Positions 1 to 53,643 of a DNA stretch of 64,000 nucleotides are shown here, in pieces. The DNA comes from Hexactinellida sp. DTS-2022 (lineage: Eukaryota > Porifera > Hexactinellida), in contig JAPNXP010000002.1 of assembly GCA_028753945.1 (NCBI GenBank), positions 5,208,001-5,272,000 of the forward strand, written 5' to 3'. The notes under the pieces were generated by a model. The model saw nothing but the letters and a program-made list of their open reading frames with translations, was not told the origin of the DNA and searched no databases. How positions within the stretch are numbered: position 1 is the stretch's first letter; every line of letters begins with the position of its first letter. Made by a program: the position numbers and the translations under genes.

Positions 1-440
1 GATATAGAATTCTGAAAGTTTGCTTGGTATAAGTTAGTTTGAAAAATTCCCTAGAATTACATATGTCTTCATTAGTTCAGACTTGGTTTCAAACAATTTG
101 GACCAAATTTGCAATAGCTGAACCAAAAATGAATCTATTTTTAATTTACTTTTCACACTATTATGAGCGTATTCCGGTGAATATATAGGATACCAATCTT
201 TTCGAACTCGTTTTCAATTGTTAATCTAATGGGTTTGCAATATTACATTGATGTGATAGGAAATTAGTGCTAAGCTCTAGAGTTTATAGTTTTCGATAAA
301 AATATATAATAAATCATCAAAAATGGGCATGCTTTATGCCCATATATGGTCATTTGGAAAAATTGTGCGAGTTAGGGTCATAAAATGTATTATGGAGGGA
401 TGGGAAACAGGATATTGCGAGCATTTTGAAACCCAAAATT
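1..440. repeat. Fragment of a foldback-element arm family
   Basis: From about 230 to 440 this stretch resembles the arms of the inverted-repeat element at 54268-57061. Shared signposts, in the same order, are a 'taagctctagagtttata'-type block, a 'tgggcat..atgcccatatatgg' palindrome and 'agggtca.aaaatgtattat'. A further fragment lies around 16170-16400. No coding potential was found. The left end of this copy is cut by the window edge. Confidence 0.6.
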
Positions 441-756
441 TTATTTATTGGACGACGGGTTTCTGAGATTCAATATAGAGATGTGAAAGGACCACCCAAT
501 GAGTTGGAAGGTCAGAAAGTTTAAAATGCTCAAGCGTTCACAGTTTTTATCCAAATTGTTTGAAACCAAGTGTAAACTATTGAATATATATTTAATTTAG
601 GAATGAGCCTTGATCTAAACTTTGCAATACAAACTTTCAGAGTTACTGCCCTTTCAAGTCAGACTTGGCACCTTGACAGTCCAAATCTGACTTCAAATGA
701 CTATAACTCCGAACTTAATTTTTGGAATGTTGAAAATTTTGCTTTACAACCTAAGT

Positions 757-1850
757 AGATATGCAAATATACTTTTGTATGAATAACAACGAGATTGAAA
801 ACAAATTAACAAAGGTAATAATTCTATCTTAGATAAACAAAGAGTTACAAAAGCATTCTAACACCCAATTATGTTTTGCTGCTCCCTACCATCCACAAAC
901 AAACGGTCTTGACGAATCTAACAACAAATCAATTCAACAGTAAGCGATCAAAATATGGAATTTAGAATTAATGATTAAGATTGAACACTGTTACTTCATA
1001 CATTGTCCGCCATATTAAATTGTCTATCTAGACTATCTACTGCGATCCCCGGATTATGATCCAATCAGGTTGGTCAGGTTGAAACCAGACCAACAGTTTA
1101 TACAAAAAGTATTATGCAATTTGATCATATTTAGTCAGGTTGTACTACTAATACGCTTTCAATCTGACCAAATCAAATTAGACTGCAGGGGCATGATATT
1201 GTGATAATATGCAATTATTATTAAATTCGCCTTTAATTCTCTATCACCATTAGTAGGTTAAAGAAAATCTTGATGGGACATTTGTATCACTGGCGAGATT
1301 TCCTTGAAGCGGCTACATTTTCAATTAATAATAGAATTCGTGAAGCAACAGGATACTCTGCTCACGAGTTGATGTATGGAAGAAAGGCTCGTTTACCCAT
1401 AGAAGCAGAAAAAAGCTTTGGGGGAATCAGATGGAATTGATGACATTATATCTGCTACTAATGAAAAGTGGGATGAAGATGTTGATAAATTCATTGAGGC
1501 CTCCAAAAAGATAATTCAGAAAATCCATCAAGTGGCAGAAAATAACATTCGATCTGCTCAAAAGTCAATGAAGACGATTTATGACAAGAAGTTAAAGAAA
1601 GTTCCTAGGTAATGATTCTGATTTTCATGAATTGGCTAAAAATTTCACAATCTGTTTATTCGTATTAGGGAGCAGATACAACCCAGGAAAATTCGTTTTG
1701 GTCATCAATCAAGCAAAGGGTAAGCACTTATCGGGAAGCAAATATCAATCAAAATGGTCAGGTCCATATAAAGTGGAAGATGTTCATGGATCCATCGTCA
1801 AGGTTGCAATTGGTAGTAAGATGAGGAACTTTCAAATTGAATCTGTTTGA
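757..1850 (+). pseudogene. Ty3/Ginger-like integrase, C-terminal half, spliced and decayed
   Basis: Integrase of the Ty3/gypsy or Ginger DNA-transposon class, which inserts element DNA in the nucleus. Visible in order: a weak core segment (757-841), the hallmark AAPYHPQTNGLDE (about 871-920), a segment reading EATGYSAHELMYGRKARLP (about 1345-1400), a lysine-rich linker (1418-1608) and a GPY/F-type C-terminal module with KWSGPYKV (1676-1847). The frame is restored by removing two introns with canonical ends: 940-1256 (GTAAGC..TAG, 317 bp) and 1609-1675 (GTAATG..CAG, 67 bp). Defects: about one extra base in the A run near 1409-1414, an in-frame TGA at 1848-1850 where family members continue, and an 18 bp insertion with a TAG at 815-832. 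The catalytic Asp of the second DDE position appears to be Asn. Introns are typical of Ginger elements or a domesticated gene rather than an LTR retrotransposon. The other half of this gene type lies at 17817-18833. Confidence 0.75.
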
Positions 1851-2133
1851 CCATTTAAAAAGCGAAAAGAATCTACTACAAAAATATTCATAGATAAGGT
1901 GATTTTAAAATAATTTTGTTGATCATCACAACACAGTTTGGAATATCAATACTATATTCCTCATATTTTTGATCAATGACAAGCTTTAGATTTTCGATCT
2001 AAAGATTGTATTCGATCAATTGCATGCTCCTCAGCAGAACTTCAATTACTAAGGAAGCATGGGATGGGCTAAATGTGAATTGTCCAAAATTTCCAGTTTA
2101 TAGAGGTTACACTGTAGTTTTGTTAATTACGAG

Positions 2134-2580
2134 TCCTTCGGTCTCGGTGGGCTTGGCGACGGATCGTGCCTCGCACCTCAAGTTAACGGCCGCTGTGCGG
2201 CCTTACTCCTCACCCTTTTCTGCCATGGAAAATGGTAGAAAGGGACGTTATATACAACCCTTTCTACCATTTTCCATAGTTTTAACTTGTTCACCAATAA
2301 TACAACTCAGAAGCTAACTTCTACTTTGATTTTGAATTTTCATTAAATTGTTTACCTATTTTAGGTAAACAACAACAACAATTATTAATATTCGAAATTT
2401 ATAAATTCGAAAATCGTTATCAGCATACTTGTTTACCTATTATAACAATTGGACTTAGTTAATATCTCATATATAAATGCGGTTTCTATTCCCTCATCAC
2501 TTTAATACAATCCGGACAAACACACACAAACACACAAACAAACAACAATCGAGATTTATAATCTAGATTATAAATTTAGA
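2134..2580. repeat. Interspersed repeat, also at 20790-21290
   Basis: About 450 bp shared with 20790-21290 in the same orientation. Both begin with a GC-richer head (cgag.ccttcggtctcg, then cgacggatcg, then ctgtgcggcc), carry a hairpin built on 'ggaaaatggtagaaaggg' and its complement, have AT-rich repeats of 'catacttgtttacctat', and end in 'ccggaca' followed by an ACACAAAC-type tail and an 'aatcgaga' motif. The tail suggests a SINE-like or LINE-3'-derived family, but no promoter boxes or ORF support that. The 103-codon frame here is incidental to the repeat. Confidence 0.65.
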
Positions 2581-2703
2581 TTGATGATACTAGTATGATA
2601 TGATTCAAACCTACTTAAAGCCAGGATTACCTGATCAAAATCCGTCGGTACATGTAAACCAAGATTCCTTGGTAAATTCATTGAAAGAAATTTAACAATT
2701 TAA
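2581..2703. other. Short spacer before a TTAA MITE
   Basis: AT-rich sequence with no gene. It ends in the TTAA at 2700-2703 that serves as the left target site of the next element. Confidence 0.4.
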
Positions 2704-3136
2704 GGTTCAGGTATACTCTACAAAATTCGAAAATTTAGATAAAATCCAAATCATTGTCTATCTCTCTTTTATTGCATTTTTGGATTGTATTGATAGGATA
2801 GGAAAATTTAGGATAGGAAAATTTCTATTAAAAAGTTGACATCACGTAATATTCAAGAAAAGTAAAATAAATAAAATTGGAACAATCCCAGACGATAAAG
2901 GATAAACAAGATATAGGTAATCGCATTTAAACAGTATTTACTAAAGTAAGGTTCATTACTACAAAAAAATCTCTTACACAAATGAGTAAAATTTGAAAAC
3001 CTAAAATTTCCCAGTTACTTGTCATTGAAATATTATTGCATTTTTGCAAATAGAAGGAAGATTCAAATCCGCAGTAAAATTTCAAGTAAATGAGGTAAAT
3101 ATTTTTGGTAGAAGTGCATTACCGTATACCTGAACT
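2704..3136. mobile_element. TTAA-target MITE, internally rearranged copy
   Basis: Starts GGTTCAGGTATACTC directly after TTAA (2700-2703) and ends in the complementary 'gtatacctgaac' before TTAA (3137-3140). It is only about 433 bp, against about 698 bp for the full copies at 13646 and 47503, so it carries internal deletion. TTAA targets and GG..CC ends fit piggyBac-type non-autonomous elements. It shares its right TTAA with the next copy. Confidence 0.7.
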
Positions 3137-23107: not shown

Positions 23108-25216
23108 ATGGCTGATATTGACTTTCAACCGCCAGAAATTGATAATTCTCAGCTCATCGAGGAACACACAATTCGGAAGTACAATGTTCCCGTGACTCGC
23201 CCAAATTGGTACTTACGCTTTTTTATTCCTGTAGAAGGTTCAAATTATACCCGACACAAATGTGTTGAGTGTGGTTTCGAGGGCATGGCCCCTCTGTATG
23301 CACTGACTAACCTTCATCGTCACTTTACTGCGTAGAAATACAAAGAGTGTGGGGTGAAATACGATAGTTGGAAGATTCAATATGGGGGCAAAAATGCAGT
23401 TTCGAAAGAAATATCACGTCATCAAGTTAACTATAAGACTTGTTCGAAAGGACTGCAATCGGATGATATTGATGATAAACTTGGAGACTTGTTTATTAGT
23501 GCTGAACTCCCATTCACATTCGTAAAACTTGAGGAGTTTGCGACTTTTTGTGCAGCGCTCAATCCCCACTATACTGTACCTTCAATATATAAGCTAAAAA
23601 ATATGATATTGAAGAATAAATATATTGAAGGTGACAAATCACTCCGTGATCAGCTGACTAATAGTCCTTTTGTTACTATTACCATAGACGGTTGGAGTTC
23701 CCGTCGGCTAATCAGTATGATGGGGATCATCGTACACTATTATGTAGAAACTATTCCTAAGTCCAGTGTTTTGTCGATGGAGATGTTTAAAGGCACTCAT
23801 TCAGGTAGGCGAATAGCGGATTTTACTCTCAGTACTTGTGGAGATTGGAATATTACCAATAAGATTGTTCGAATAGGAACAGATAATGGGTCGAATATGG
23901 TAAATGCATTTTCTCATTTTGAAGAATTATTAGAACTGAACGAAAACCTAGAGAATTTGGATGATGGCTCACCAACTGTTGAACATCTAGATGAGGATTA
24001 CGATTCTTTCGATGAGGAAACGTAGGCGTTTGATGAGATTGACAATTCTGTTATAGAGAAAGCTGTCGAGAATCTAACTGAAGATTTGGAAAAAGCACAT
24101 CCTAAATCACTACTTATAAAGTTGCGAAATGCTGGCCTGTTAAAGAATTGGTTCCCATGCGCGTGCCATGCGGCGCAATTAGCAGTAAAGGATTTATTGG
24201 CTCGTAATCTTGGCCACCGTGGCCAGGTCAACGTTCTAGTAGCCAAGGCTCACGAATATGTGAAATGTTGCAAAAACTCGACCAAATGTGCCGAAATCTT
24301 CCTTAATGAACGTGTGTCCTTGGTTTCAATGAATAAAACTCGATGGAACAGCATGTATAATATGCTTAATTCATTATTGAAGGCAGATGACAGAAAGATA
24401 TTAGAACAGTTGCCACCATTAAGCTGTCAACCCCCTAAGAACTTTGAGATGAACATACTTCGCGAAGTATGCGAAGTTCTTCAGCCCATTTCTCTTTTTA
24501 CAATTGAGATGCAAGCTACTCACGGCACAAGTGGCATGATTATCCCTGCGATAGAAATGATTTTGAACGAATTGGACGAGGGAGACTTAGCCTTAGTTTT
24601 ACGTGATATCATTAAAGAACGTTTTGCTTATCTCAAGTTAGACAAATTTTTCTGGATTGCAAATTGTCTCGACCCACGATTTGCGTTAGAGACATTTGAG
24701 AAAGAAAATTACATGAGAGCGTTAAAGCAGGCTTTGAAATCTGTAGTGGAACACAATAACATCACTGATGGAGAGAATACAAAACAGGATGTCGTAGTCG
24801 TAGAGCCCGAAGGTGAACATGCTATCAAAAAAAGGAAGAGTCTATTTCCTGTTAAGAGGTTTTCGGATTCACATCTACAAGGTGTTTCTGAAGATATCAT
24901 CGATATGGAATTAACTTTATTCAGAGCAGAGGCAAGAATGATACACGGAGTTATTGAGGTCGATCCAGCTAGGTGGTGGGTTAGAAATTCTTCCAAATTT
25001 CCCTTGATGTCTCAACTCTCTATGATATATCTATTGGCTCCAGCATCGACCTCTGATGTGGAACGTTTATTTAGTGTAGCGGGTCGTATCAGTCGCCCGC
25101 ATCGCTCTAAGTTAAACCCTGATACAATTTCGCAACTGGTAATTCTTAAATATAGAATGAATGCCGAAAAGCGTGCGATTGCTTCAATAGTTAAAGATGT
25201 TGAGAACCCGAAGTAA
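23108..25216 (+). pseudogene. hAT transposase with two in-frame TAG codons
   Basis: 702 codons from the ATG at 23108, one continuous frame broken only by TAG at 23333-23335 and 24023-24025. Domains in order: BED-type zinc finger (HKCVECGFEG .. LTNLHRH, residues about 58-77), first catalytic Asp in TITIDGWSSRR (about 195), second in RIGTDNGSNMV (about 258), the conserved CACHAAQLAVKD (C-x2-H class), TRWNSMYNML, and the C-terminal dimerisation and catalytic Glu region PASTSDVERLFSVAGR (about 646-661). All family landmarks are present and there is no frameshift, so inactivation is recent or the stops are suppressed. An upstream alternative start at 23024 adds nothing conserved. It acts as a nuclear DNA cut-and-paste transposase on the flanking CAGGG ends. 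Confidence 0.93.
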
Positions 25217-27902: not shown

Positions 27903-28182
27903 CCCAAATAACCTATACTTTAAATATTAATCTAATTGTATATTGTGTTATTTTGGTATAGCACAATATATAATGAAATTAATATTGTAACTATCTATTA
28001 TTCCATAATAAAGTGGGCTATGTGTATCATTCAACTTGACGACGTTATATGGTAGCAAGAATGTAGATACTATTTCAACCTAGCTACCGCAAAGTAAATA
28101 GAAATTTTTATAATTTGATATAATGAACACTATAAAAGTAAAGATTTGATTGATGATTACTGTGATTGTAATTTGACTATCG

Positions 28183-30417
28183 ATGACTTCCACAAAACCA
28201 CTCACACGCAGTTATACAGAACACAGTGTCTTTGGACAACCAGCTGATTTACCTACATCAATAATACCATCGGAGAAAGATGTCTTTAGGTACATACTGT
28301 TGTTTCAACAAGAAAGGAAAAGTTCTGGGCAAGTGTTCCCAAATAATCGCGAAAGCTACAGATCAGTTGCAGAAAAAGTGATCCAATTATGGGATACTTT
28401 TTCTTTTCCTACTATCTCAAGGGAAGGAGTGATTAAGAAAGTACAAAATCTTCATAATCGGGTTAGTGAAGTAACAAAAATATCACTGGATAGAAGAGAT
28501 TCTGATATATTTCTCAAGAGACTCGCCGAGTTTGATCGCATGTTTGATATTTGTTCTTGTACCTGTTATGATCGAGGAATTGAGAGAAGTGAATGTCAAT
28601 GTAAGCAAAAGATAGCAATTAAGGAATGGATACCTTATGTCCAACAGAAAATCCGTGTTGGCCAACTTGCTGGCATTGATCTGAGGACAACAACTAATCT
28701 TCGCGAGAAGGAGAAGAGACAGGATGCACAAGCGAAAAGACAAAAGGTATGATGCCGAATTCCTCCAAACGATTTCTTTTGATCAAACAACCATTGAGCT
28801 TGAAAGTCCGGATTTAGTAAACTATGATATCGAAAGTGACGACCCAGATTTTGAAGTGGATAGCATGCCATACATTAAACACAACTCCAATAGAAACACT
28901 CATTTATTCCCCAAATTAGCTGTCACTGCGGATCGTTTTGGCTTAAGTAACGTGGCAGTTGCAGCTATAGCCAATGCAGCCTTCAAGACTTAGGGCTATT
29001 GAGTGATCAAAACAAGCTGGATAAAAACAAAGTTAGCCGGGAAAGGAAAAGAATGCGAAAATCAAGTATACTTGAAAATGTAACCAATGTAATTGATGTT
29101 CAGTGTATTGGTTATGATGGACGTAGGGACAAAACCAAAGAGATTACAAGTGTTTTAGTTAAGGGTGAAGAAGACACAGGCCACATTAAAATGATGCAGG
29201 AAGAAATAGAGGAGCATTTTGTTGTCTTAAAACATCCAGGAAACATATTTCCAGATCACTTTTCACCAGAATCAGGTAAAGCAATAGATGTCGCGAGAGA
29301 AATTATTGGAATTATTCAAGAACGCAATAGCATGGCCTCCCTTGTTGCCATCACATGTGATGGTTGCAACGTCAATACAGGAAAACATGGTGGTGTAAAA
29401 AAACGAATTGAATTGGAATTGGATCGTCCATTACAATGGTTAGTATGTCAACTACATCTGATAGAATTACCACTGAGAGAGATGTTCAGAAAAATAGATG
29501 GAGTTACCAGTGGGCCACGTACATATCAGGGTGAAATTGGGAAAAATATTCAGCCTGATCTCCGGACATTACAAATAGTAAAATTTGAGAAAATCTTTGG
29601 GGAGGTAGAAGAAATAGAAGATCAAGTTCTTAAGAATCTTAGCAGCGATCAAAAGTATTTGTATGAGGTAGCTTTATCAGTTCAAACAGGTAACTTTCCC
29701 ATAAGACTCGCTACTCGGTCACCAGGAACTCTGAATGAAGCAAGATGGCTTACTAAAGCAAACAGAATCCTAAGATTATACGTTTCGACAAATAATCCTT
29801 CATTTAACTTAGTGAAGCTGGTGTCATTCATATTAAAGTTGTATGCTCCTGCATGGTTTAAGATTAAGTCAAATCCAAGAGCTGTAGATGGTGCCAAGAA
29901 TTTCTTTTACATCTTACAACTGTTATCCAAACTACCGGAAGATGATCAGATCATTTGTAAACCAGTTTTACTTCGCAATGCATACTTTTTACACTGTGAA
30001 AGTATATTGTTAGCTTGTGTTAATGATCCTGATCCAAAGATTAGAACAGTTGCTATCGATAGAATATTGCAAACAAAAACTAAAGCCGCGTCCCTGCGTA
30101 ATTTTCTACTCCCTAACAAAATAAACTGGAATGCAATGGAGTATCCTGAAATGATAGAGTGGCTTCCAGAAAAGATCTCTGTTCCACCTATCCTACAATA
30201 TTGGAGTGAAGAACAAATCAGGGAGGGATTTGAGAGACCATTAGAAATCCCTGAATACCCTTGTCACAATCAGTCGGTAGAAAGAGGTGTTCGTTTGCTT
30301 TCTGAAGCAAGTAGACGAGTTTATGGCTATGAGGAGAGACAGGGATATATTTTGAATACTCTAGCTTCAAGAGATAATATGCCCTCTTTTAGGTCCAAGA
30401 AAGATTACCCTTCGTAA
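28183..30417 (+). pseudogene. Transposase of the long-TIR hAT-like element, two frameshifts
   Basis: Frame 1, 28183-28752, starts MTSTKPLTRSYTEHSVFG; it holds a Cys-rich knuckle (FDICSCTC .. SECQCKQK, about residues 123-148), possibly a zinc finger. Frame 2, to 28993, is acidic and contains LAVTADRFGLSNVAVAAIA. Frame 3, to 30417, holds the RNase H-like core: VAITCDGCNVNTGKHGG, LVCQLHLIELPLREMF (C-x2-H motif), NEARWLTKANRILRLYVS (hAT RW motif) and near the end HNQSVERGVRLLSEAS (ER motif), closing with SRDNMPSFRSKKD. One-base shifts lie near 28745 and 28985. The order D, C..H, RW, ER is that of hAT transposases but the sequence is far from typical; I recall the family as uncharacterised multi-copy proteins in invertebrates. 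A splice explanation for the first shift (donor-like AAAG|GTATGA at 28747) has no matching acceptor. Confidence 0.8.
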
Positions 30418-36400: not shown

Positions 36401-37206
36401 TTGGTCTCTACTCAGACACTAATCGTTAGTTTGCTTCAATGAGCTTGCAAAATGATCTTTATACGATTAAGAACTATATCTGAATTTTTGAAAGCAATCC
36501 TTGTCAACTTTATTAGATAAAATTTGGGATATGTCAAAAAAACAATAATTGAGTAATTGAAGGCTGAAGTTTTTTGATTGTGAAATGCATATGTGCTATA
36601 AAATTTGTCCGTATTACAACCGGATTTAGTTTCAATATACTAGATAATTTTCATACTATATACTAAATATGTATTGAAACATCATAGTAAACAAACGACT
36701 TGATTAAATCGAATTCTATGCAAGTTTCTGACATATTAATGCAGTCCGCTTTCTTTTGGGACATCATTATCAGCGATAAATCATGGCAAACGTAGTGAAA
36801 AATGCTTTAATATACATAATATGTCTACACTAGTTGGGATACAGTATGGATATACTAATATATATTACAATTGAGTTGAATTATATAATATAGTCAATTA
36901 ATCTGTTGATGATGCATAAAAAATATAAAAAATATGCAGATCAGAATTTCTATCCCATTATCAACTGGTTTTGGCAATAATAATCACTGAGATATTTGTG
37001 CATATAAATATTAGTATAACTACACAAAGTATATAAGTGCACGATTTAGTACATATAAAACCAAGGAATGTCAATTGAGATAATAAAAATGCTACATCAT
37101 CAATAATGACGTCACCAAATTAAGATTTTGAAGACTTTGTAGAATATTTTTTCAAAAAAATTCACTTCTCACATAATTTTATGATACATTAGCTTCATTT
37201 CACAGT
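33469..37206. other. 3.7 kb without a recognisable gene
   Basis: AT-rich. Identifiable bits: a pogo-like end at 34385 ('tacagtagaacctcgtaaat') with 'ccgtattaact' echoes to about 34640; a GC-richer scrap at 34670-34765; a 'cttatcataa' microsatellite at 34765-34810; 'gcaaagttgcgaagcgaccc' at 35381. I searched this interval for a RAG2-like or other partner frame for the adjacent RAG1-like element and found none. Confidence 0.45.
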
Positions 37207-37211
37207 GTAAA
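37207..37211. repeat. Left target-site duplication GTAAA
   Basis: GTAAA here and at 40327-40331 exactly flanks the RAG1-like transposon. Five bases is the duplication length known for Transib and RAG-family transposition. Confidence 0.9.
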
Positions 37212-40200
37212 CACAGTGGCTTAATTTGGCATTTGGTAAGTAATAGGTATCTGGGTTAATTTTTACCGTATATAATGTATTATTTGCCTATAGGTTATCG
37301 AATATTAGGAATCGATTGCGATAATTAGACCTCCCCTAAGTCTTGCGGTTTTGGAATTATGACGTAATCATAATTTTGCAAAATTTTTAAAGCAAGAAAT
37401 ATTTTTACAAATTTTTGTATTTTTTAGTATCAAATCTATTTAACAATAAGAGAATGTACTAGACTATCTATAGATGACTCTATTGTGTTGTTTGAGTCGT
37501 ATTTGCTGCAACACTTGGCAGACCTTCTAGTGTGACCCTCTTCGCCGCATCTCTCACAACTCAATTTAGAGCGAAATCCTAATAAAACTGGATCACTTTC
37601 ACTAGCTAGCCTAACAAAGATGTCAATAATGTTATCTTCAAAGGATGTCTTTCTTGCTAAATGTTCTCTGTATTTTCTAATTAATTTATTACAAGCCTCT
37701 GAACCTTCTTCAGAGAAACATTTAAAACCATACCCAGAATTAACGTCCCTTAACAATTCTTCGGAGTGTGCCAAAAATTTGTGCAATGTGGGAGTGATGT
37801 TTGCCCATGGAAATGATTCAAGGATTAAGAGATAGGTACCTTTACAAAGTTTTCCAAGTTCATTGGTATAGATCTTTCTTCCACTGTTGAAGATTCTCAG
37901 AATTGCAGATAATTGTGTATGAACTTTTGAGAGTGCTTCTTTGTGCTGTTGCTCAACTAATGAAGATACACACTCAATGAACTGGGACTCGCTAGAAAAT
38001 GCTTTTCGTGCAACGCTACCAGTAGACGTCGTTCCACCTGAAGGATCCGGTAGGTCTACTTTTAAGCCGATCCCTTCAAGTATCACGTTGCGCACAAAGT
38101 TCATCGATTGGTGGATAGCAGGGGAAGTAGGTGCCCATTTTAATTTCCCACTGTTCAAATGGTATACTAGTAAATTAAACCATCGGAAAATACACGTATA
38201 AGAGTGTAGAGGAGAAGCCGGTGTGATATTGATGGTTGAAACAGGTTCGTGTGTTAAATTGAATCGATCATTGGATGGAAGAGAGAAAAATGATTCGATA
38301 TCTTCCATTTCTCCAAACATTTCTATCGCATCAGAAATATGCCTGTTAATGGGGAATCCTTGCAGTATTAACTGTGGATCCTTCAGTTCTTTATGAGTTG
38401 CTGTGCATAACTGACAGCTTGCTCCCCCTGCCCCTGAAAGTATTGCAGCCATTTTCCCATCGAACATCGATCTAGTAAAATCTACAGATACTTGACCCAT
38501 TCCAGGTATCTCAAATCCTTCATTCTTCAATTTGTCAGTGTCAGGGTTTATTATGATAGTCATAAATTGTCTGATATTCGACTCATTTTCTTTAGCAGCG
38601 CACAAAAAGATTGGCCGTTGACAAAATGGAGAGTTAGGTGTAGTATCTTTCCAGAGTTCGTTTCCACTTGAAGACTTGATGGAAATAGATTTGAAACAAA
38701 AAAATATCAATGACTTGGTAGAAGTATTTGTATTTTGTTGGTTGTAAATTGTATGACTTCCCGATCCATCTAAACCATCTACTATTTGAAAACTAAGCGG
38801 GAAATCCTCTACCAATGGACGAGATATTGTAGAAAGGATTCTGATAAATGTATGCTCCACATATTGGGCGTAGGTTACACATGCACCAAGCGGTTCTAAA
38901 TCGTTAGGATACAGCTTTATTGAAGAACGTAAAATTATACTGTTTCGCCTATCGACAAGCTTCTGATAAGCAGGAAATTGAATATAACTAGATAGTAAAA
39001 GTTGACGCAGCTTAGTATATTGCCTCTTGCCAATTTCCAGCATATCAAGAAGGAACAATGACTTATCAACATCAACTTCTTTCTTGACTACTTTACCAAA
39101 ATCCCCAGGAAAATTGTCAGTTACAATTAACTTAGATACCTTAGCTATTTGTCTGGTATCATACTCATTAGAAACCAACTGTTGAGCGAGTGCAGCAATT
39201 TTGATTTCTGAAATGTTCTCAATTTCAGCAAGTACTCTGATAGAGTCTAATACATTTGATAGCCTTGATCGCTGTTGCTTAAATGAAAGGGTGTCAATAC
39301 TCTACCTATGATGTACTGAAGGATTTGGTGTATCAGCATCGGAAGAAAGACGCCTCTTCTTCAAATCTGGTTCAAGAAAAACAGCAGAGTTCCAGAATTC
39401 TCCACCCAGTGAGTCAATCGATTTCTTAGACTTCCTGATTGTATCCCGAACCCTGGTTAGGATTGTGTATATACTATCTCTCTTAGCAACGTCTAATTCA
39501 AAATATTCCTCCAATTTGACAATCGTTTGAGAAATATTGTTGTCATTTTCTATTCAAAATTCTTGCAAAATCAAGCCTGGTTTGTGGTATGGTAATTGGA
39601 ATTTCAGCCATAGATGAGGAAATAAATACCTAATTCGTTATTGAAATAATCTTTATTCCATATATTATCTTACATTTACGTATATATATTATAAATTTGT
39701 AGATTGTCAACATGCCATTTGCATATTCCGAAAGGTATATTGTTACATAGCAACAAATAACAATCACTGGAATTTCCTTAGCAACGTAAATTAACAATGG
39801 AATTCGATAACTTTTTAAAAGTTGCGCACTGTTTCGGGAGCTAAGATTTCCATGATTATTTCTTACAACATTAATCTATAACCTGTAAAAAAATCTCGTT
39901 GTTGTCCGATGAACATTTTTTTTCCGCATACCTGAAATTTCAAATTTAATAATATTGAAGAATTTTGGACATAGAGTTTTTATCCCCTGTTAAAATAAAA
40001 ATGTATCAGTGTAACAGTAAATCAGAAGAGAAATATATATTTAGCATACTCATATTGTATATATTAGAAAACAATATAACCGCGATTCCTTATACATTGT
40101 AATTCAGAGTAAAATGAAATGTGTTGGATTTTTGGAATTCTCAAAACCACAAATGGAACTATATATTTGATGTAATTCAAAATTATATTTATAGGCGTAG

Positions 40201-40326
40201 TTTATATTCAAATCAATTGAAATTTCAAATGAATGTTAGTATACTATCTAACTTGAATTTAATACCATTTAGAATCATTTTGATTACCACAAATATTTTC
40301 CTATTTCCAGGTGTTAAGCCAATGTG
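37212..40326 (-). mobile_element. RAG1-like (Transib/RAGL class) transposon, complete
   Basis: 3115 bp. The left end reads CACAGTGGCTTAATTTG inward and the right end, read inward on the minus strand, CACATTGGCTTAACACC; the first 13 bases match at 12. CACAGTG is the V(D)J recombination-signal heptamer and CAC(A/T)(A/G)TG is the Transib terminus. The target duplication GTAAA is perfect. One gene fills most of the element on the minus strand. I see no convincing nonamer 12 or 23 bp inside either heptamer. The right end (5' side of the gene) has about 700 bp of non-coding leader. All of this is read from the sequence; class assignment follows from the transposase. Confidence 0.93.
37436..39611 (-). 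pseudogene. RAG1L: RAG1-like transposase
   Basis: DDE recombinase of the RAG1/Transib family, cutting at CAC-type termini. Start ATG at 39611; about 725 codons. The main open part (from 39178) contains, in order: catalytic Asp in GLDGSGSH (codon 38770-38768, equivalent to RAG1 D600), the conserved DTTPNSPFCQRPIFLCAAKE, second Asp in SMFDGKMAA (38461-38459, D708), zinc-binding CQLC (C727/C730), HKFLAH (H937/H942) and catalytic Glu in SEEGSEACNK (37699-37697, E962), then KYREHLARK. Spacings between these residues are close to RAG1. The tail has C-x2-C-x3-GH-x6-C (37558-37511). Defects: TAG at 39302-39304 in an otherwise continuous frame, and one apparent base shift near 39545. There is no RING or N-terminal RAG1 domain. 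Codon 39178 is an internal Leu, not the start. RAG1L and Transib are hard to separate without a tree. Confidence 0.92.
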
Positions 40327-40331
40327 GTAAA
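40314..40331. repeat. Right terminus and GTAAA duplication of the RAG1-like element
   Basis: 'ttaagccaatgtg' (40314-40326) is the inverted counterpart of the left end, followed by GTAAA at 40327-40331. Confidence 0.9.
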
Positions 40332-40736
40332 CTCGCATTTCAATTTTGTCATAAAAAAACCTAAAATTTCAACCGAAGCATCCTTAAATTGAAAGTGAGA
40401 GTAATTAATGATTTATTAATAAATTGAATTGCAGCAGGGCAACATACAATTAATTAAGCAAATACGTTATAATATAATTGATAAATTGGTAAATAACATA
40501 TAATAATCAGGAGGAGGCTTTCTGAAATGCTGGTCTTGCTTGGTTATGCTATATAGAAATTTACATAATAATTGTTTGGTTATTATTAGAATGAACAATA
40601 AATTGAATGTTAAACTTACTTGAAACATTATATGCGACAGTCAATTTCAAATTCGTGATTTGAGTATTACCCTAAATGTAAAATTCACATAAAAATTACG
40701 ATAATGCATAATATGCAAAGAACCATACCTGTAGAA
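40332..40736. other. AT-rich spacer
   Basis: No repeat or frame of note. It precedes, on the minus strand side, the putative intron of the NPKDT exon. Confidence 0.4.
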
Positions 40737-51159: not shown

Positions 51160-53643
51160 TAGTGATGATAACCGATTAGTAAATAATCGATTATTTAATC
51201 GATTAATGAATTTACTTATTATCGATAACCGATTATTCTACTTCAATTAATCGGTTATTTTCAAAATTACACCTTCTAATAAACAATAAGGTTTCTACTA
51301 TAATTTCTATTAAAAAATCACACAATTGTCATTATATGTATCCTTGAATTATGTTTTAACGGCTAGAGACCTAATTGCTAGACATAGTAGTTTCTAGACA
51401 TACGCATATTTATATGTATAATTTTCTGTAAACGTATGTATTTGTTACAGCATAATATTGAATCTTCACACTTTTCTATAAATCGTTACTTCTATACTTA
51501 CAATACTCTACGTTATTATATAATGACTAAAAGGTCTGATGTGTGGAAACATTTCGAGAAATATGGGGAAGAAGCCAAATGCCTTATTTGTAAGAAGAAC
51601 TTAAGTTGTAAAGGCAGTACAACAACTGGGTTAAGAAATCATCTTTTGATACATAACATCCAATTGGGCCTGGATCACATTTGTGACAACGAACCCCCAT
51701 CCAAGAAACACAGTACTCAAAGTTTGTTACCATCATTTTCCAAAAAACAAAGTTTAGATGAGGTAATTGCTAGGTTAGCTGCTGAGGATGGTTTCAGTTA
51801 TCTAAAAATCAGCCAAAGTAAATTTATTCGTTCTTCGTTAAAAGAAAAGGGTTTCACCCCAATTCAAGACCATTCTACAGTTTCAAGAATGGTTTTGAGG
51901 TATGCAAATCATGTTAAGGGAGTGATCACTTCTCACTTAGAGTTTTTACTTGCTAATGGAAAAAGGATGAGCGTGTCCTTGGACGAATATACTTCTGTCC
52001 AAAATAAACGGTATATGAATGTCAATATACATAGCATCAATGAGTTTTGGAACCTAGGAATGAAGCGTATTTATGGAAAGATGCCAGCTGAGAAGGTTCT
52101 TGAACTTTTGGAAAGGATATTAATTGAATTCAATATTGAGTTGCAGAAGCATATTGTTAGCATCACCTGTGACGGAGCCCCTGTCATGGTGAAGATGGGA
52201 AGACTAAGTGGTATTAATCAGCAACTTTGTTTGGCTCACGGGGTACATTTAGCAGTAGTTGCTGTATTATACTCCAAGAATAATATTCCTATTTATGATG
52301 AAGGAACGGACGAAGAGCCAAATGGAACATCTCAAATTCAGTCGACTATCTCTGACTCATACGATGGCCTTTGTGGTGCAGAAGATACTGAGGGTGAATT
52401 CATTTCCTCAGATGAAGATGACGGTGAAATCGATGAAGACGTGTATATCCCGCCTTTGAAAATAAATATAAAAACTGTTATCGTTAAGTTTCGAAATATC
52501 GTTCGCATATTTAGGAAGTCCCCATTAAAAAATGAAGTACTTCAGTCGTACATAAAGGAAGATTTAGGAAAAACTTTGAATCTAGTCCTGGATTGCAAGA
52601 CTAGGTGGAATAGCTTAATTAGTATGATTAGTCGATTATTAAATGTAAGAAAACCACTATGCAAAGCTATGATCGACATCAATTTAAAAATGGAAATTTG
52701 TGAACTTGATTGGCAAGTGTTGGAAAACATTTGCAGTTGTTTAAAACCCATCGAAATGGGAATATCTGCTCTATGCCAGCGTGACGCAAATTTACTTAGT
52801 GCAGAAGGGATATTCGATTTTATGTTCCAGAAACTTGAAATGGTTGGTTCAGATTTCGCCTTAGAATTACTGCAAAAGCTAAGACAAAGATTTAACGAGA
52901 GGCGGCAGTCTAATCTTATCAATGTTATGAAATATTTATTGAATCCTGATTCGATAAGGGAGGATCCGTGTATTAAAAGAAAAGAAGTGCAAAAGACAAT
53001 GAAAATCATCCTTTCACAATTGTATTCACAGCATGGAACTGAACAAAGCGATAATGTAATTGTAGATTCTCAGGAGATTTTGGAAGACATTGAAGATGTT
53101 GAAATACATAACTCTCCGATATTACTTACTGACCAATTAAAAAGAGCTATACAAAAGTCTACAACTCATGTAAGAACCCCGAAAGAAGATATTGGATTCC
53201 TATTTTTAATAAAAGAGATGGCCTTATTTGAAGCCACTGGAGACAAATCCAAAAATATTTCTTCTATAGAGGAAGCACTGAATACAATTCCTCCGACAAG
53301 CGTTGAGGCAGAACGGGCTTTCTCAGCGGCAGGACTTTTTGTGACGAAGTTGCGATCACGTTTGAGTGAAAACTCGGTTGATAGCTTAATGATCTTAAAG
53401 TCATATTTCAAGAAGCAAGAGATAAAGTAATAGTAAATTAATAGACTTTAGGATTTCTTCATTATTAGTCATTACTCATTATTATATCTAATTTGATACA
53501 CCAAAATACAGGAGAGTACTAGAAATTAGAGGCAGAATATAAAGTTAATTGATTAACCGATTATAACCGATTAATCGGTTACTTTGCGAATTAACTATTC
53601 GATAACCGATTATTTTATAATTGAAGTTCGTTCAACATCACTA
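51160..53643 (+). mobile_element. Apparently intact hAT transposon
   Basis: 2484 bp; ends TAGTGATGATAACCG and complement of TAGTGATGTTGAACG; perfect 8 bp duplication GTCAGCTC (51152-51159 and 53644-53651). Subterminal regions carry iterated 'ataaccgatta' and 'aatcgattaa' motifs at both ends. It contains one uninterrupted transposase gene. Inserted in the coding exon of the split gene at 50421-57355. Confidence 0.95.
51523..53430 (+). CDS. hAT transposase with BED zinc finger, intact frame
   Basis: 635 residues from ATG 51523 (MTKRSDVWKHFEKYG); an upstream in-frame start at 51436 adds only low-complexity sequence, so the BED finger supports the later Met. Domains: BED finger (CLICKK .. GLRNHLLIH, residues about 17-43), first catalytic Asp in MSVSLDEYTSVQNKRY (about 155), second in SITCDGAPVMVKMGR (about 220), CLAHGVHLAVV (C-x2-H), an acidic loop with EDDGEIDED, CKTRWNSLISM, and the C-terminal PPTSVEAERAFSAAGLF with the catalytic Glu, followed by SRLSENSVDSLMILKSYF (dimerisation). 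All landmarks of a working hAT transposase are present with no stop or shift. It acts in the nucleus on the TAGTGATG ends of its own element. Overlapping frames on the other strand are shadows. Confidence 0.95.
   Translation: MTKRSDVWKHFEKYGEEAKCLICKKNLSCKGSTTTGLRNHLLIHNIQLGLDHICDNEPPSKKHSTQSLLPSFSKKQSLDEVIARLAAEDGFSYLKISQSKFIRSSLKEKGFTPIQDHSTVSRMVLRYANHVKGVITSHLEFLLANGKRMSVSLDEYTSVQNKRYMNVNIHSINEFWNLGMKRIYGKMPAEKVLELLERILIEFNIELQKHIVSITCDGAPVMVKMGRLSGINQQLCLAHGVHLAVVAVLYSKNNIPIYDEGTDEEPNGTSQIQSTISDSYDGLCGAEDTEGEFISSDEDDGEIDEDVYIPPLKINIKTVIVKFRNIVRIFRKSPLKNEVLQSYIKEDLGKTLNLVLDCKTRWNSLISMISRLLNVRKPLCKAMIDINLKMEICELDWQVLENICSCLKPIEMGISALCQRDANLLSAEGIFDFMFQKLEMVGSDFALELLQKLRQRFNERRQSNLINVMKYLLNPDSIREDPCIKRKEVQKTMKIILSQLYSQHGTEQSDNVIVDSQEILEDIEDVEIHNSPILLTDQLKRAIQKSTTHVRTPKEDIGFLFLIKEMALFEATGDKSKNISSIEEALNTIPPTSVEAERAFSAAGLFVTKLRSRLSENSVDSLMILKSYFKKQEIK

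Follow-up and report, generated by a model that had tools for sequence, protein, structure and literature searches.

In vertebrates, antibody genes are put together by the RAG1 enzyme. The locus described here raises the question of whether it holds a complete transposon of the RAG1 family and, if so, where in that family the element belongs and how its two ends are built. The locus lies in the window (C11:5208001-5272000), by which we mean the whole 64,000-nucleotide stretch of DNA that was analysed; the genome searched comprises 112.4 Mb in 18 contigs. A first-pass annotation had proposed a recently active RAG1-type element without RAG2, related to the Transib and RAGL transposons.

Boundaries, insertion site and siblings

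The element spans 3115 bp. Its left end reads CACAGTGGCTTAA and its right end, on the reverse strand, CACATTGGCTTAA; the two are alike in 12 of 13 bases and are flanked by a perfect 5-bp duplication. Both the inverted ends and the duplication are exactly as the first-pass annotation had given them.

37062-37211, plus strand: left flank, belonging to the dispersed repeat into which the element inserted; about 56 bp more of this repeat lie to the right of 40331
37207-37211, no strand: target site duplication GTAAA, left copy (end inspection, scan, empty site)
37212-40326, minus strand: DNA transposon of the Transib superfamily, 3115 bp, with the transposase on the minus strand
40327-40331, no strand: target site duplication GTAAA, right copy (end inspection, scan, empty site)

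Across 36-42 kb, CAC...GTG pairs were sought at a separation of 1.5-6.5 kb; they had to agree in at least 10 of 14 end bases and be bordered by a perfect 5-bp duplication. The single pair to pass was 37212/40326. A genome-wide DNA search with the element returned at least 47 matches (best 40 of 304 candidates scored). The nearest sibling, at C16:1660085-1663208, is 92% identical over bases 1-3115, ends at the same two places and has its own duplication, GTAAG; differing sibling boundaries, which the first-pass annotation had named as a refutation, were thus not observed in it. In addition, the two flanks were joined with one GTAAA and searched against the genome (best 40 of 164 candidates scored). 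The junction was crossed in 38 of the 40 matches listed, all of them copies of a dispersed repeat, and the remaining two are the element's own flanks. Four of these empty-site copies were aligned, and they carry a single GTAAA and are gap-free at the junction. Together, the sibling boundaries, the empty site and the sibling loci with the same ends make a chance pairing of the ends untenable.

The target repeat (37062-37211 and 40332-40387) is concentrated on one contig, 29 of the 38 copies listed sitting on C11. It has a CACAGTG of its own at 37201-37207, adjoining the insertion, and the final G of this heptamer opens the duplication. A CACAGTG within the left 25 bp of flank was seen in one of 15 elements examined, and may reflect either coincidence or a target preference. 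The neighbourhood is less quiet than had been claimed: the absence of a competing element does not hold, given hAT-like transposase frames at 23336-25216 (with a stop between its two parts) and 51391-53430 (with a BED zinc finger), and the element itself sits inside a copy of this dispersed repeat. The window also contains an open frame of 488 residues (28951-30417), to which no Pfam model matched, and another frame at 28177-28752.

At the protein level, at least 84 matches were found in the genome (75 of 1003 candidates scored). Among the matches listed, 13 cover at least 500 of the 580 query residues in stop-free open frames of 711-757 residues. Twenty sibling loci were fetched, and 14 have CACAGTG at both ends together with a perfect 5-bp duplication; such ends were not resolved in the other six (L019, L025, L029, L031, L034, L036). 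Several pairs are nearly identical: L026 and L027 share 99.1% over 3082 bp and have different duplications (AAATG and TAGTA), L023 and L024 share 99.0% over 2764 bp, and L021 and L022 share 98.5% over 3326 bp. Since near-identical full elements are bordered by different duplications, recent movement in this genome, as judged from these copies, is well supported, in agreement with the activity proposed earlier.

The transposase and the search for RAG2

The transposase is encoded on the minus strand, and its parts are the following:

39549-39611, minus strand: transposase N terminus (MAEIPITIPQ...), in a different frame from the remainder (sibling proteins)
37436-39538, minus strand: main transposase frame, with a TAG at 39302-39304 and a frameshift between 39538 and 39549
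38768-38770, minus strand: catalytic Asp D177 of the 620-residue frame, presumed equivalent of RAG1 D600 (alignment)
38459-38461, minus strand: catalytic Asp D280, presumed equivalent of RAG1 D708 (alignment)
38405-38416, minus strand: zinc ligands C295 and C298 (alignment)
38216-38359, minus strand: 48-residue zinc-domain segment, alignable with amphioxus RAG1L but lacking in HzTransib, at the position of the RAG2-binding alpha11-alpha12 region
37766-37783, minus strand: zinc ligands H506 and H511 (alignment)
37706-37708, minus strand: catalytic Glu E531, presumed equivalent of RAG1 E962 (alignment)
37511-37558, minus strand: C-terminal zinc-knuckle-like tail CX2CX3GHX6C (sequence motif)

The 620-residue open part of the main frame runs over 37436-39301, with its terminal stop at 37436-37438. 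Similarity to sibling proteins begins at 39611; the reading frame then changes somewhere from 39549 to 39538, the TAG follows, and the remainder is open. Thus, comparison with the siblings bears out both the one stop and the one shift (near 39545) noted in the first pass. The window copy does not yield a complete transposase, yet a sibling's enzyme could still mobilise its ends.

The three acidic residues and the four zinc ligands (D177, D280, E531, C295, C298, H506 and H511) are invariant in an alignment with HzTransib and amphioxus RAG1L (BbRAG1L), as the earlier reading would have it; we take the acidic residues to be the equivalents of D600, D708 and E962 of RAG1. Against proteins of solved structure, the window protein matched HzTransib (E 3.3e-23), amphioxus RAG1L (3.6e-11) and RAG1 (2.6e-5), and a 13-member family profile matched the same three (HzTransib 1.3e-46, BbRAG1L 3.9e-18, RAG1 2.5e-14), with its N-terminal part aligning to the nonamer-binding region of RAG1. 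The profile comparison, which by the first-pass annotation would have refuted the reading had it pointed outside RAG1/Transib, thus assigns the protein to the Transib/RAG1 family. The Pfam RAG1 model scored above its cut-off in seven of nine sibling proteins tested and below it in L021 and L033; the window protein alone reaches 20 bits against a cut-off of 25, which counts against our reading. No Pfam match to N-terminal RING or zinc fingers of the RAG1 type was obtained at E up to 1 in the nine sibling proteins, and PMC7204232 describes the RING part as missing from some RAG1L as well. A structure prediction for the window frame was set aside and not used because its mean pLDDT was 34.3. No relatives were found in the prokaryote or viral contigs searched.

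The element was described earlier as RAG1-only, and this stands: it contains no RAG2-like frame of 60 residues or more, and in the 20 sibling loci no frame inside the element other than the transposase appeared among the two longest frames per locus. The search for Kelch genes beside sibling copies, also proposed in the first pass, gave no Kelch match within 650 kb of the transposase copies listed (43 Kelch matches; 18 cluster representatives compared with 75 places). A Pfam RAG2 search of the genome yielded no candidate, its positive control likewise giving no match. Kelch genes of the KLHL type are present in the genome.

Asymmetry of the two ends

The ends of the window element, together with the terminal stretch kept by short copies, are as follows:

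37212-37224, plus strand: 13-bp end element CACAGTGGCTTAA with heptamer CACAGTG, on the transposase C-terminal side
37225-37237, plus strand: 13-bp spacer of the long-spacer end (block analysis)
37238-37247, plus strand: second end block AAGTAATAGG, positions 27-36 of the end, with 7 of 9 matches to GGAAATAGG, a motif defined a posteriori
40314-40326, minus strand: 13-bp end element CACATTGGCTTAA, on the transposase N-terminal side
40310-40313, minus strand: 4-bp spacer of the short-spacer end (block analysis)
40300-40309, minus strand: second end block TGGAAATAGG, positions 18-27 of the end, with 9 of 9 matches to GGAAATAGG
39770-40326, minus strand: terminal 557 bp common to short non-autonomous copies; 26 of the 47 matches listed cover about this stretch only

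In the window, therefore, 13 bp, a 4-bp spacer and TGGAAATAGG stand at one end, and 13 bp, a 13-bp spacer and AAGTAATAGG at the other. The heptamer of the right end is one change away from CACAGTG, the sequence given as the consensus heptamer of vertebrate recombination signals in PMC8289069.

Three analyses (of shifts, blocks and short copies) recover this asymmetry. In 10 of the 15 elements whose two ends were compared with each other, the best match lay at an offset of 9 or 10 bp, and in one at 14 bp; it fell elsewhere in four (the window, L021, L022 and L035), the window's own being a chance shift, which counts against our reading. The mean match to GGAAATAGG over 11 subfamily representatives is highest at position 19 in the N-terminal-side end and at position 28 in the opposite one, and none of 1000 shuffles was as high at either end, for a motif that was chosen after inspection of the ends. 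Three of the 11 subfamilies depart from the 4/13 places (the block is not recognisable in L021 and L035 and is shifted in L028), and this too counts against us. Elsewhere the second block has diverged, with TTCGAATAGG at both ends of L033, and GTCGATTAGG and GTCGATTAGA in L032, from which it appears that the two ends change together.

The short copies provide the third line. Their matches cover about bases 2559-3115; 14 of the 26 were fetched and 13 examined, L044 being excluded as its match stops short. Wherever the other end was found, the 13-bp spacer is retained opposite the 4-bp one (seven of seven copies, three of them with equal duplications), but the seven should not be counted as independent cases since they probably descend from one deletion copy. 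On these sequence comparisons, we would hypothesize that the ends are paired asymmetrically.

A nonamer was looked for in the window's own ends and not found (best 6 of 9 bases), and a nonamer-like AAAAAAATC follows a 20-bp spacer in three of the 15 elements (L018, L021 and L022), at a single end in each. Further inside the C-terminal-side end (37212-37290), AATGTATTATT near positions 63-73 is conserved among the 11 subfamily representatives and may either form a third block for binding or signal where a transcript ends.

Placement of the element and possible implications

The locus shows what characterises a Transib: a D/D/E transposase homologous to the RAG1 core and a 5-bp duplication with CAC heptamer ends, while a RAG2 partner was not found within the element. 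Transibs are split by Tao et al. 2022 (PMC9435367) into Subgroup I, which is nearer to RAG1L, and Subgroup II. The traits of Subgroup I, whose holders include ctenophore and Hydra elements, are a zinc domain that includes the alpha11-alpha12 region, the CTT1 tail, asymmetric ends and the lack of RAG2L; asymmetric ends also occur in some Subgroup II elements (PMC9435367). The common RAG2-binding-type region, the asymmetric ends and the lack of RAG2L liken the present element to Subgroup I, a likeness drawn from the published description rather than from sequences.

The zinc domain is of RAG1 length. Thus, from the second zinc Cys to the first zinc His there are 208 residues here, 202 in BbRAG1L and 165 in HzTransib; by alignment and length, the alpha11-alpha12 position is filled, and the loss of this region typical of Subgroup II is not seen. 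A tail of the form CX2CX3(G/S)HX3-6C is present in the window and in 11 of the 20 sibling loci, and none was found in the other nine. Among these 12 tails the last spacing varies (X3, X5 or X6), and the exact X4 that PMC7204232 gives for the RAG1L tail (CTT1, CCGHC motif) was seen in none; this difference from CTT1 counts against our reading. So does identity over shared columns, which is 26-30% to HzTransib and 22-24% to BbRAG1L. On the other hand, BbRAG1L is matched at 45.7 bits by the window protein versus 19.0 bits by the HzTransib piece. In a tree built from 13 members of the family and two references, one Transib (HzTransib) and one RAG1L (BbRAG1L) with no Subgroup I sequence, the family's own copies grouped at 66/97 and both references sat on very long branches. 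As the tree did not place the family, membership of Subgroup I is deduced from the traits, namely zinc-domain length, the tail with its altered last spacing, and the asymmetric ends. From these sequence features, we consider the element very probably to be a cut-and-paste Transib, most likely of the RAG1-near Subgroup I, that inserted in a dispersed repeat and whose transposase was later broken.

An ordinary Subgroup II Transib resembling HzTransib, with a tail and a longer zinc domain of independent origin, is an unlikely alternative. HzTransib (Helicoverpa zea; 6pqn and others) shares with our element a RAG1-type core without RAG2 and is the closest solved relative and best match of protein and profile alike; moreover, the tail is missing in part of the family and variable in spacing, and asymmetry is not foreign to Subgroup II. 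The placing of HzTransib in Subgroup II is our own, based on how names are ordered in a legend of PMC9435367 and on the missing zinc-domain region. What speaks against this alternative is that the extra 48-residue segment aligns with BbRAG1L and has no counterpart in HzTransib, and that BbRAG1L is better matched by the window protein than by the HzTransib piece. HzTransib differs in lacking about 35 residues of the zinc domain found here, and its ends are described as symmetric in PMC8289069.

Less probable still is a degenerate RAGL transposon of the ProtoRAG type that has lost its RAG2L gene. RAGL transposons (amphioxus ProtoRAG, bivalve, nemertean and algal) have in common with our element a RAG1L core, 5-bp duplications, CAC ends and a CCHC-type tail, to which the RAG1-length zinc domain can be added, and the algal AanRAGL has ends of the same geometry, with a 13-bp element, 4/13-bp spacers and a 10-bp element (PMC9435367), all lengths found here. 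They differ, however, in carrying RAG2L beside RAG1L and in their end sequences: the protostome RAGL consensus, CACTWMCAAAC with AAA at positions 8-10 according to PMC7204232, is not matched by the sibling ends. Further, HzTransib was matched more strongly than BbRAG1L, and, as detailed above, neither a second long frame among the two longest of each sibling locus, nor a Kelch cluster within 650 kb of the transposase copies listed, nor (its control also without a match) a Pfam RAG2 candidate was found. Thus, sequence match, end sequences and the lack of a RAG2-like gene among those sought narrow the kinship with Transib/RAGL proposed earlier, itself supported, to Transib rather than RAGL. The reading that the locus is no transposon copy, but a host gene of domesticated origin or two ends paired by chance, has negligible probability. 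It has in its favour a mostly open frame and nothing more, and faces the empty site, same-ended siblings elsewhere, the short copies, and the stop and frameshift; at this locus, the empty site refutes it.

For the Subgroup I Transib thus preferred, the following mode of action may be envisaged. The transposase, without RAG2, would bind the heptamer CACAGTG and a second block lying 4 or 13 bp beyond the 13-bp terminal element, and one short-spacer end would pair with one long-spacer end. DNA would then be cut at the heptamer by a nick and hairpin and joined to target DNA with a 5-bp stagger. Nick-and-hairpin cleavage at the heptamer is known for RAG1 and HzTransib, and it is from these that the cleavage step is borrowed; the ends, the duplication, the empty site and the catalytic residues are seen directly. 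Vertebrate RAG1 has the same catalytic residues and zinc ligands, and its recombination signals the same heptamer, but these signals follow a 12/23 nonamer arrangement, unlike the different second block, spacers and absence of RAG2 here.

The element is one more member of an already known transposon type, of interest for its asymmetric, recombination-signal-like ends without RAG2. Tentatively, we propose that RAG2-free RAG1-family transposons of an early-branching animal (probably a sponge) might pair V(D)J-heptamer ends whose second blocks differ in placement by roughly a helical turn (4 against 13 bp), and that a 12/23-like rule and the RAG2-binding surface might predate RAG2. This touches the debate on V(D)J origin, which asks whether RAG2 brought with it the asymmetry of the signals and the part of RAG1 that binds RAG2, or found both already in place. 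Many diverse, seemingly recent RAG2-less elements with the 4/13 offset and a RAG1-length zinc domain would offer natural variants for testing that origin, and a sponge host would extend the RAG1-family record to an early animal branch. No literature on sponge Transib or Amphimedon RAG1 elements was found by title or opening of the abstract, which is weak evidence since the hundreds of metazoan Transibs in the supplements of PMC9435367 lie outside the scope of such a search.

Several other features of the genome were recorded. Four-unit telomere runs of six common motifs were absent from the sequences examined, and a satellite of about 180 bp (TTCGTTCCCAGC...) lies at several contig ends (L009-L013, L016, L060-L062). 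There are only 16 homeobox matches in the genome, among them Msx, NK2 and POU kinds, named by reading the sequences. Together with the KLHL-type Kelch genes and the SRCR domains described next, they suggest that the host is a sponge. An arthropod is improbable, since Chitin_bind_4 gave no match in a search whose positive control likewise gave none. SRCR domains gave at least 153 matches, with large tandem clusters on C13, C15, C6, C5 and C14; large SRCR sets are a feature of sponges.
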